This document shows positions 1,654-12,809 of a stretch of 64,000 bases of DNA, in pieces. This stretch comes from Pseudoselenomonas ruminantium (GTDB lineage Bacteria > Bacillota > Negativicutes > Selenomonadales > Selenomonadaceae): NCBI GenBank assembly GCA_015058575.1, contig SVBZ01000017.1:1-64000 (forward strand), in the 5' to 3' direction. How positions within the stretch are numbered: the stretch's first letter is position 1; each line of letters begins with the position of its first letter. The notes beneath the pieces were generated by a model. It was not told where the DNA came from and made no database searches. It worked only from the letters and a program-made list of their open reading frames with translations. Position numbers and translations under genes: made by a program.

Positions 1654-2730
1654 GTGAAAGAAAATATGAACATTGTGATTTCCTCGATGCATTTTTCTCC
1701 AGCATTTATATCGCATATGGGAGGATATGGTAATTTATGCAGGATGATTGGTGCTGATGTTAGTTTTTTGATAGATGAAAAATATAAAGAATTCGGAGAA
1801 TTTAATAGGCAAAAAATATATACGGATATTCCCAAAAATGAAATAAGTAAATATGATTTGATTATTTTTGTAAATTTTGCTGTAGAGAATGTTAGAATAG
1901 CAAGATTATGGAGAAAACAGGGGAAAAAGATTATATATGTATTACATGAACCGGATTTGGGGATGAGGAGACTATATCATGAATCTTTTGTAGGTGCAGC
2001 AAAAATTATTATTGCTGGAATTATATCTAAATACATATGTAGATTAAGTGATTTAGTTTTAGTAGCTTCGCAACAGGGAATGAATAGTTATAAGAAGTAT
2101 TATAGTATGTACAACTCTAATGTACGATTGATTCCTCTGATTTTTGATGATGAAATAAGAAGTGAAGATATAAGAATTGGGAAGAAGATATTTTTTTCAT
2201 ATATTGGAAATATTAGTAAATCACATGCTTTTTTAGAATATATAAAAGCTATAAAAAAAATCCACGAGATAAATGGTAAAGCGAAGTTTCTTATAGCAAC
2301 TAGAAATGATATTAATAATTTAATAAACAATGATAAATATGTTAAGAATATGATTGAAGATGAAACATTAATTATACAGTCTGGAAGGGATTTGAGTAAT
2401 GAGGAAATTAATCATTACTATTTGGATAGTTTTTGCGTGTGGACGGCATATGCATCTAGTACACAGAGCGGGGTGTTAGGGAAGTCTTTTATGGCAGGTA
2501 CACCAGTTCTTGCATCACGTGTTGGTAGCTTTAATGAATTTGTGATTGAAGGTAAAAATGGAGAAATAATAAATTCATACTCTTTTGAAGTTATTAATGA
2601 AAAGATTATGCAAATATTTAATAATAAGAGAGAATATGTAAAAAATGCTAGAGATACGTACGAAAAGATATATTCATATAAAAGTTATGAAAAAACTTTT
2701 GCTAAAATTGTTGATGAATTAAATGGATGA
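1654..2730 (+). CDS. Glycosyltransferase, GT-B fold (family 4-like)
   Basis: C-terminal GKSFMAGTPVLASRVGSFNEFVIEGKNGEII resembles the GT4 donor-binding region; sits within the GT cluster. Confidence 0.75.
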   Translation: MKENMNIVISSMHFSPAFISHMGGYGNLCRMIGADVSFLIDEKYKEFGEFNRQKIYTDIPKNEISKYDLIIFVNFAVENVRIARLWRKQGKKIIYVLHEPDLGMRRLYHESFVGAAKIIIAGIISKYICRLSDLVLVASQQGMNSYKKYYSMYNSNVRLIPLIFDDEIRSEDIRIGKKIFFSYIGNISKSHAFLEYIKAIKKIHEINGKAKFLIATRNDINNLINNDKYVKNMIEDETLIIQSGRDLSNEEINHYYLDSFCVWTAYASSTQSGVLGKSFMAGTPVLASRVGSFNEFVIEGKNGEIINSYSFEVINEKIMQIFNNKREYVKNARDTYEKIYSYKSYEKTFAKIVDELNG

Positions 2731-2749
2731 TGGAAAACAGAGGTAAATA

Positions 2750-3838
2750 ATGGAAATATACATTTTTCTATATGGATGGAGCATTATTTTAGCCTTGTTT
2801 TTTCTGTTGCTTTGTAAAAATAAATTCAAGAAAATCTATATTCTATTAAATGCAATACCAATGATTACGGTTTTGGGGTTTCGAGGAATATATACTGGGG
2901 CAGATACATATACTTATGTTTCTGCATTTGAAATTATCGGAGTACATGGCAACGGATGGTTAGACTGCGTTGATATGGAATATGGCTATATCATATTTAA
3001 TAAAATAGTATATACTTTGTTTGGGGATGTTAGATATTTATTTATTTCTATTGCAGGATTAAGTATTGGAATTTTATGTTGGTTTATAAATAAATATTCA
3101 TGTAATATTTATTTATCGCTGATTGTATTTAATGGAATAGGTTTTTTTATTTCTAATGTAAATACAATAAGACAATGCTTAGCGACTTCTATCTTGTTAA
3201 TTGCATTAAATTATATTATTGAAAACAAAAAATATATAGCAATATTGTTTGTCATGATAGCTGGATCATTTCATATGACAGCGTATTTGTTTTTTCCGTT
3301 GGTCTTTTTACAACCATTAAATATGAAAAAAATATTTTTAGTGATAATGTCATGCGTATATGTCGTTTTTTTGGTACATGATGCTGGATTGATGGCTGTA
3401 GCATCAATCCTTCCAGAAAAATATTTGCTATATATAGGAAGCGTACATGATGTTGAAAGTAGCAAAATAGGTTCTGTAATTCGAGGTGTAGCATATATAT
3501 TCATTTCTCTTGTTAGTATTTGGCAGTATCATACTGGAAATGCTTCTCTTGATAAAGAAATTGATAATAAAATAAATAGTCAATGTGTGTTATGGTTTGC
3601 TATGCTTGTTTTTCTCTCAGGGCTAATATTATGCATTCAATATGATGTGGCGATTATAGGACGAATAGGATATACTTTTACGATTTTTATCTGTTTGCTA
3701 GTTCCGATTTTCTTTTATGGAATGGGAAAAGTGGCAAGGATGTTCGCTATACCAATATTTATCATCGTGTTAACGCTTCAATTTTTTTATATGATTCAAA
3801 ATCTACCTAAAGACAGAATATATTATTTTTTATATTAG
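2750..3838 (+). CDS. EpsG-family polysaccharide polymerase (Wzy-like), multi-pass membrane protein
   Basis: FRGIYTGADTYTYVSAFE and NVNTIRQCLATSILL motifs typical of EpsG; many hydrophobic segments. Confidence 0.8.
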   Translation: MEIYIFLYGWSIILALFFLLLCKNKFKKIYILLNAIPMITVLGFRGIYTGADTYTYVSAFEIIGVHGNGWLDCVDMEYGYIIFNKIVYTLFGDVRYLFISIAGLSIGILCWFINKYSCNIYLSLIVFNGIGFFISNVNTIRQCLATSILLIALNYIIENKKYIAILFVMIAGSFHMTAYLFFPLVFLQPLNMKKIFLVIMSCVYVVFLVHDAGLMAVASILPEKYLLYIGSVHDVESSKIGSVIRGVAYIFISLVSIWQYHTGNASLDKEIDNKINSQCVLWFAMLVFLSGLILCIQYDVAIIGRIGYTFTIFICLLVPIFFYGMGKVARMFAIPIFIIVLTLQFFYMIQNLPKDRIYYFLY

Positions 3839-11128: not shown

Positions 11129-11198
11129 GAGTAGCGTTTTCCATTGAAAAAAAGAGAATCAAGAATGTGATCATGAAGATGTTTTGGGAGGTGAGGGA

Positions 11199-11393
11199 AT
11201 GTTTGTAGTCAAGAAATCATCCGAAATGATGAATAAGACGTTTCGCTTGCCGGTTGATTTGATAGAACGGTTGACTGAGGTGGCAAAATCGCAGGATGTT
11301 TCGGTCAATAACCTGGTGCAGCAGTGCTGTGAGTATGCGCTTGGAGACATGGCAGGTGGAGGAAAGTCTGCGAAGACGAAGCAGAGGAAGTGA
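11199..11393 (+). CDS. Small ribbon-helix-helix (Arc/CopG-like) protein
   Basis: MMNKTFRLPVDLIERLTEVAKSQDVSVNNLVQQCCEYAL RHH-type pattern; SD GGGAGGTGAGGGA upstream. Confidence 0.7.
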   Translation: MFVVKKSSEMMNKTFRLPVDLIERLTEVAKSQDVSVNNLVQQCCEYALGDMAGGGKSAKTKQRK

Positions 11394-11397
11394 GCTT

Positions 11398-11754
11398 ATG
11401 ACGGAGCTTTCGAAGAATCTTCAGCATATCCGAGCGGCGCGTGGTTTGCGGCAGCAGGATGTGGCAGATGGACTGGGAATCAGCAGGGCGACCTATGCCA
11501 ATTATGAGGCGGGGCAGCGCAGCCCGAATCATGTTATGCTGATGAAGCTTGCCGCGCTTTTTCAGGTGCATGTCGATGATCTTTTAGGCTTTCGGCCAGA
11601 TGAGAGCCATCTGAAACCTGCGGAGATTTCCTTGCTGGAGCGGTTCCGGCGCTTGCCAGCGTCTAAGCAGGAGTTCTTTTCCCGGCTGGTTGATTTTGAG
11701 CTGCAGGAAAATTTGAATACAGATAGCAAGAAGCCATCGTTCTCGAAGAAATGA
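11398..11754 (+). CDS. XRE-family HTH transcriptional regulator (true ATG at 11398; the longer ORF from 11296 overlaps the RHH gene)
   Basis: LSKNLQHIRAARGLRQQDVADGLGISRATYANYEAGQRSPNHVMLMKLAALFQVHVDDLLG HTH_3. Confidence 0.9.
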   Translation: MTELSKNLQHIRAARGLRQQDVADGLGISRATYANYEAGQRSPNHVMLMKLAALFQVHVDDLLGFRPDESHLKPAEISLLERFRRLPASKQEFFSRLVDFELQENLNTDSKKPSFSKK

Positions 11755-11770
11755 GAACGATGGCTTCTTG
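11727..11770. terminator. Perfect 18-bp stem hairpin between convergent XRE and rpn genes
   Basis: CAAGAAGCCATCGTTCTC-GAAGAAAT-GAGAACGATGGCTTCTTG; the left arm encodes the XRE C-terminus. Confidence 0.75.
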
Positions 11771-11784
11771 TGGAATGATTACGA

Positions 11785-11994
11785 TTAACGAATTTGTTCG
11801 GCTAGTTCGGCAATTCGCTCAGGACTAAGGCGTGAGTACTTTATAATCTTATCAATGGGTTCATTGTCGCGAAGCATGTTTATTGCCATGGAAGTTCGTT
11901 CTTCTAATCGGCCTTCAAGTCGTCCTTCGGCCCGGCCCTCAGCTCGGCCCTCAGCTCGGCCCTCGTCTTGTAGTTTCTGCATTAATTCACACAT
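11785..11994 (-). CDS. Candidate intragenic small protein (69 aa), in frame with the rpn C-terminus
   Basis: Internal ATG at 11994 preceded on the minus strand by AAGGGGGTT-AAAGCC-ATG; SD-like sequence pairs with AAGGAGGT anti-SD apart from one G:U wobble, 8 nt from G-run to ATG. Confidence 0.4.
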   Translation of the reverse strand: MCELMQKLQDEGRAEGRAEGRAEGRLEGRLEERTSMAINMLRDNEPIDKIIKYSRLSPERIAELAEQIR

Positions 11995-12624
11995 GGCTTT
12001 AACCCCCTTGTTTTTATGTTTGAAAAAGTCGGCTCTTTGGGCCAGTTCAGGATAGTGCATCTGCCTAGGGTCAGAGCAGAAAAAATCCTGCATAAGCAAC
12101 CCTAGGGCATTGGTTCCTCGGTAGGAACCGTTTACGTAGATAGTATGAGCAGCATCCTCGAAAGGCTGATTAAGTTCTTGGATGATAGGTTCGATGTGAT
12201 ACATGGGAATCTTTCCGCCGAATATATCCTTTTCCGTGATAAATATGACCCATACCTCAGGAAAATTTTCATATTTGGTGCCTTTGTTGATTTCTCGGGA
12301 GTCGATAAGGCTGTGGTTGAAACGAGCACGTTTAGGGGTAGCTCCTTCGTTGGCACGCTGGATTTCTACATTATATATTTTGCCATCGTTATCCACGGCA
12401 ATGACGTCGAAACGTGCACTGCGACCATAGAGATTTTGTGCGGAGCGTTGTGTAACAACTTCTTTTATCATGATGTCATCGCGGTTAAAGAAAATGCGGA
12501 GTAGCAGTTGCATACATTCATTGCTGCCATCGAAGCATACATCAAAGAATGTATCGTCGATGAGACGAAACTGTTCAATGAGCTCCAAATATTTCTTTGG
12601 CGGTGCAAATTCTAGTAGGCTCAT
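11785..12624 (-). CDS. Rpn family recombination-promoting nuclease / PD-(D/E)XK nuclease family transposase
   Basis: N-terminal FAPPKKYLELIEQFRLIDDTFFDVCFDGSNECMQLLLRIFF, RSARFDVIAVDNDGKIYNVEIQRA nuclease core, MQKLQDEGRAEGRAEGRAEGRLEGRLEE tail typical of the family. Confidence 0.9.
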   Translation of the reverse strand: MSLLEFAPPKKYLELIEQFRLIDDTFFDVCFDGSNECMQLLLRIFFNRDDIMIKEVVTQRSAQNLYGRSARFDVIAVDNDGKIYNVEIQRANEGATPKRARFNHSLIDSREINKGTKYENFPEVWVIFITEKDIFGGKIPMYHIEPIIQELNQPFEDAAHTIYVNGSYRGTNALGLLMQDFFCSDPRQMHYPELAQRADFFKHKNKGVKAMCELMQKLQDEGRAEGRAEGRAEGRLEGRLEERTSMAINMLRDNEPIDKIIKYSRLSPERIAELAEQIR

Positions 12625-12769
12625 AGCACATCGTCCTTCCTTTTATTATATCACGAGATTGTGATTGTAAAAACAATCCTATATTAAAACACTTGTTCCT
12701 TATAGTGATAATATCATAGTTGCAGATAAAAGTCCATGCTATCGCAGAAGAATTTAAAGCAAGATAACA

Positions 12770-12809
12770 AAAAGCCATTGTCCTCGAAGAAATGAGAACG
12801 ATGGCTTTT
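12770..12809. terminator. Hairpin terminator downstream of accC, near-copy of the hairpin at 11727-11770
   Basis: AAAAGCCATTGTCCTC-GAAGAAAT-GAGAACGATGGCTTTT; loop and right arm identical to the first copy. Confidence 0.75.

Follow-up and report, generated by a model that had tools for sequence, protein, structure and literature searches.

The minus-strand rpn gene at 11785..12624 of the analysed window, a 64,000-nt stretch of Pseudoselenomonas ruminantium contig SVBZ01000017.1, very probably contains an internal start that yields the tail of its product as a separate small protein. Across Selenomonadaceae, both the internal ribosome-binding site and its start codon are maintained by selection that acts separately from conservation of the protein sequence, and we consider it highly likely that the locus is an RpnL/RpnS gene-within-a-gene toxin–antitoxin. 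The mechanism is already known, as this type of system was published in 2023 by Zhong et al. (PMC10327210); the window locus is a well-supported additional case, not a new system.

The rpn (rpnL) ORF encodes a 279-aa PD-(D/E)XK nuclease of the Rpn family (COG5464). It is matched by PF12784 (PDDEXK_2; E=2.9e-9, 37.4 bits against a cut-off of 27.4), while TIGR01784 (Rpn) reaches 45.9 bits, slightly under its 52.1-bit cut-off. The full-length start ATG at 12624 is preceded by a GGAAGG Shine-Dalgarno sequence (SD; 12635..12640, minus strand) with a spacing of 10 nt. Residues D73, E87 and Q89 (minus-strand codons 12408-12406, 12366-12364 and 12360-12358, spanning 12358..12408) are unvarying in our homologue alignment and form D73...E87-x-Q89, which, from what is known of PD-(D/E)XK nucleases, we take to be the catalytic motif. 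Among named relatives, the nearest protein, from Selenomonas sp. ND2010, is 90% identical along the entire length, indicating a genome in Selenomonas or very close to it. Unlike the E. coli Rpn proteins, this Negativicute protein does not significantly resemble any solved Rpn structure in sequence: neither the full-length profile nor the C-terminal 69 aa retrieved a match in PDB sequence searches. A fold search with the full-length model (medium quality) gave nothing significant, and PADLOC held no model matching the protein.

Within the ORF, the codons AAC AAG GGG GTT AAA GCC ATG are present exactly as the original prediction had read them. They include a putative internal SD, AAGGGGGT (12002..12009, minus strand; GGGGG core at 12007-12003, in place of the perfect GGAGG of E. 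coli rpn genes), followed by an in-frame ATG (11992..11994, minus strand) that encodes Met211 of RpnL and would encode Met1 of RpnS. The pairing of AAGGGGGT with 3'-UUCCUCCA-5' extends over 8 bp including one G:U, in agreement with the single wobble claimed before; the claimed gap of 8 nt to the ATG at 11994 is correct when counted from the last G and becomes 7 nt from T12002, the last paired base. Translation from this ATG would produce the 69-aa C-terminal protein with the sequence originally given. The 16S gene was not found in the window's own draft assembly, so the anti-SD was taken from relatives: two further genomes from the genus have 7 copies of GGATCACCTCCTTTC apiece, and the CCTCC form is usual in the genus. 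Taken singly, the window gene is weak evidence for an internal SD, because 5% of its synonymous reshuffles pair equally strongly with the anti-SD.

The pattern becomes clear when homologues are considered together. In an alignment of 100 rpn genes of the genus and the family, we identified the codon corresponding to Met211; clustering at 85% identity left 66 non-redundant homologues. Pairing was expressed as the mean energy of the duplex formed between the anti-SD and the 16 nt preceding this codon. The observed mean was -10.86 kcal/mol, against -7.28 kcal/mol (sd 0.29; best of 200, -7.91) for a synonymous-codon reshuffle null. A null with per-gene codon usage gave -6.92 kcal/mol (z = -14.2 at 85% clustering), and z remained at -9.4, -7.3 and -5.6 with stricter clustering at 60%, 50% and 45%, respectively; at each level, 0/300 nulls were as strong as the observed pairing. 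Among 253 codon positions, codon 211 ranks strongest for upstream anti-SD pairing, and no consistent excess is seen at the control sites, which comprise Mets 178, 189 and 215 together with two purine-rich sites elsewhere.

Codon choice within the SD follows the same direction. In the 58 of 66 clusters with Gly at the SD position, the codon is GGG in 38, GGA in 12, GGT in 8 and GGC in none, whereas GGC is the most frequent Gly codon in the rest of these genes (P=4e-16). The amino acids specified by the purine stretch differ between homologues (KGV, EGV, HGV, GGV, KGG, RGG, ERV, REV) while the stretch itself persists. Codon 211 itself is ATG in 64 clusters, GTG in one and TTG in one, thus a possible start codon in 66/66, in contrast to the otherwise well-conserved Mets 178 and 189, which drift to Ile, Phe, Leu, Val, Asp or Glu codons. 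The SD-to-start spacing is 6-10 nt in 66/66 homologues and exactly 7 nt in 41 of them. The reshuffles under both codon-usage schemes (pooled, per-gene), the four redundancy levels and the control Mets together lead us to reject an SD arising by chance or dictated by the protein; the synonymous-site conservation on which the original prediction had staked its reading is therefore present.

The same kind of internal site is found in sibling rpn copies of the window's genome: AAAGGAGTGAGCAAAATG in L002, AAAGGGGTGACTAAGATG in the truncated L003 and AAAGGGTGAGTTATATG in L004. L002 and L004 are tandem paralogues (L002 coordinates 1453-2316 and 2500-3402, genome G000 contig C55) with very different nuclease parts and a final 238 nt that is 92% identical; the break lies within the 12-nt repeats, of which they have 3 and 6 units. 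A shared 3' end behind differing nucleases indicates that the C-terminal domain moves between nucleases. A distant rpn-type gene on contig C41 of genome G000 (L005) carries AAAAGGAGGAACTCGCAATG / AAAAGGAGG before an in-frame ATG, with a would-be 103-aa C-terminal protein; the ribbon-helix-helix/HTH pair beside it shares 89% DNA identity with the pair next to the window's rpn gene, described below.

The predicted antitoxin RpnS (11785..11994, minus strand) contains five 12-nt units encoding EGRA EGRA EGRA EGRL EGRL (11905..11964, minus strand), which begin 10 residues past the internal Met; the number of units differs among homologues. An AlphaFold2 model of the 69-aa protein, with low to medium confidence in residues 1-30, has a long helix (3-42) followed by short helices at 47-54 and 58-68. 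In a Foldseek search of the whole PDB, E. coli RpnA-S (7TH0) was ranked second, with a probability of 0.97, a TM-score of 0.83 by target length, an rmsd of 0.9 over 41 columns and 29% identity. The E-value is 0.89 owing to the tiny size of the domain, and the fold match rests on the TM-score, the probability and the rank. The model thus gives good but not decisive support for a fold shared with E. coli RpnA-S.

The locus resembles E. coli RpnA-E and plasmid-borne RpnP2 in that its PD-(D/E)XK nuclease gene has a second, in-frame start located at the domain border, from which the C-terminal domain would be made, and in the predicted three-helix fold of its RpnS. The repeats also agree: in described RpnS proteins the four-residue units start 8-20 residues after the internal Met and vary in number (PMC10327210), a range that includes the spacing seen here. 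E. coli rpn genes additionally carry an internal promoter for a short rpnS mRNA (PMC10327210). In the window gene, a promoter search inside rpn returned at best a 9-of-12 match at 12209-12182 that was not above chance. The C. difficile rpn gene is likewise a Firmicute-lineage gene with an internal ribosome-binding site and start, although its sequence differs; when expressed in E. coli it yields RpnS, and mutation of the internal site removes the small product (PMC10327210), an experiment that concerns production of the small protein and not antitoxin activity.

By analogy with E. coli, the same mRNA would be read from ATG 12624 to give the nuclease RpnL and, independently, from the SD/ATG at 12009-11992 to give RpnS, for whose production C. 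difficile provides a second precedent. RpnS, made up of two short helices and a long dimerisation helix that carries the repeats, would bind the matching C-terminal domain of RpnL and keep the nuclease inactive; release of RpnS, presumably upon phage infection or other stress, would free it. Toxicity, neutralisation and a role in phage defence are likewise proposed from the E. coli systems, and the step from a selected internal start to an antitoxin rests on homology and the predicted fold. The original prediction of an Rpn nuclease with an internally started candidate antitoxin is supported and named the right system. Its suggestion that the arrangement widens this system is true for a Negativicute, but the widening is modest, as rpn had already been found in 34 bacterial phyla and an RpnS product had been demonstrated for the gene of the Gram-positive C. 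difficile (PMC10327210).

The surroundings of the gene offer circumstantial evidence of another kind. Two palindromic hairpins bound an exchangeable slot: GCCATCGTTCTCATTTCTTCGAGAACGATGGC at its downstream edge (11733..11764, minus strand) and the terminator-like GCCATCGTTCTCATTTCTTCGAGGACAATGGC at its upstream edge, after accC (12774..12805, minus strand). The possibility that the hairpin is a genome-wide repeat was discarded, as only the two copies flanking rpn occur within 3 mismatches. In sister genomes G001 and G009, the same flanks (in G001, 88.7% and 95.6% identical to those of the window) enclose a RelB antitoxin paired with a YafQ toxin in place of rpn (L141 1053-1700; L142 2230-2800), with YafQ partly deleted in G009. 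Rpn and the two-gene RelB/YafQ toxin–antitoxin therefore replace each other at one site. The RelB/DinJ-YafQ type II system shares the chromosomal slot and the hairpins, but differs from rpn in consisting of two separate genes, having an RNase toxin and lacking the gene-within-gene layout. This swap lends independent, circumstantial support to the toxin–antitoxin reading of rpn.

Two further genes lie convergent to rpn on the plus strand. One encodes a 69-aa ribbon-helix-helix protein (11184..11393; Pfam RHH_5/HicB/CopG_antitoxin, all below cut-off) and the other an XRE-type HTH protein (11398..11754; Pfam HTH_3 E=7e-14). Among the 26 best genus matches of the ribbon-helix-helix gene, 18 are convergent to an rpn gene at a distance of 44-400 bp. 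An exclusive partnership with rpn was rejected, as the gene also adjoins unrelated genes.

In three sister genomes, a copy of the C-terminal rpn part stands alone, immediately behind the stop codon of a tyrosine recombinase gene: G018 (L006/L056; L006 856-1137), G021 (L016, about 1633-1364, minus strand) and G016 (L029 1492-1743). Separate rpnS genes have been described before (PMC10327210); the Selenomonas copies differ from these in being located behind a recombinase gene and not downstream of an intact rpn. Their homology to rpn reaches back to about 54 nt upstream of the internal ATG and thus includes AAGGGGGT and the ATG; the free copies carry 3 to 5 repeat units. Codon changes between rpnS copies are predominantly synonymous (10/1, 11/3 and 7/2, synonymous/not). 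This separate preservation of the rpnS segment counts in favour of the RpnL/RpnS reading. The recombinase is single-copy in 14/22 genomes and has rpnS behind it in only three, which weakens the idea of a mobile integrase carrying rpnS; in G008 it is followed by a ribbon-helix-helix gene without rpnS. Neither G016 nor G021, the latter assembly being only 82% complete, yielded a full-length rpn of the same type, defined as 57% identity or more.

In G018, the gene order is recombinase, free rpnS, ribbon-helix-helix fragment, full rpn and ribbon-helix-helix gene, an arrangement that suggests a tandem duplication followed by loss of the nuclease part from the first copy. The free rpnS has 5 repeat units and the adjacent full rpn has 6. 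It may be inactive on the neighbouring RpnL, because in E. coli RpnC a mismatch of a single unit abolishes inhibition (PMC10327210). Tentatively, and with rather more doubt than conviction, we speculate that the GCCATCGTTCTC hairpin site is a toxin–antitoxin exchange slot alternating between rpn and RelB/YafQ, that nuclease-deleted rpnS genes persist as antitoxin-only genes, and that the G018 copy is specific for another toxin. If this is true and the E. coli rule holds, the free G018 rpnS would be blind to its neighbour.

Some of these observations can also be read without an antitoxin. Cas11d is a structural or assembly subunit for Cas10d, and by this parallel the internal start could be real while its 69-aa product serves as such a subunit of the nuclease, or as a regulator. 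Our computed results do not separate inhibition from assembly, and the free-standing rpnS genes are compatible with any trans-acting role. We nevertheless regard this as improbable, as a type II toxin–antitoxin pair fills the same slot elsewhere in the genus and experiments with E. coli RpnA, RpnB, RpnC and RpnP2 demonstrate inhibition (PMC10327210). A different objection concerns the purine stretch, which might be a ribosome pause site or a by-product of the conserved K/E-G-V-x-x-M-C peptide at the domain border, with no internal initiation. The GV..MC peptide is indeed well conserved, and the 5% of equally strong reshuffles in the window gene taken singly also speak for it. However, the synonymous-site excess lies above every null, the SD is kept while amino acids change, the Met codon is limited to ATG/GTG/TTG and the spacing is fixed at 6-10 nt, which leaves this explanation with almost no credibility.

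It is also conceivable that rpn is decayed or silent in this genome, the arrangement being inherited and no longer used. Rpn genes turn over fast, as seen in the broken or partial copies L003 and L015, and two sister genomes have no rpn at this site. Nonetheless, the window ORF is intact with every motif residue present, and the closest relative is 91% identical with mostly synonymous differences in the RpnS domain, making such decay highly unlikely. We therefore retain the RpnL/RpnS toxin–antitoxin as the preferred reading.

In the literature we searched, which was incomplete, we found neither a synonymous-site selection test of the internal rpn start nor a report of the rpn/YafQ slot swap or of rpnS behind a recombinase gene; we make no claim of priority for any of these. 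Rpn antitoxins have been demonstrated in few organisms, and internal starts are seldom annotated. Through the codon-level test, any genome can be scored for a pattern known until now from a few cloned genes, and the slot swaps, domain swaps and free copies of rpnS constitute compact natural experiments.
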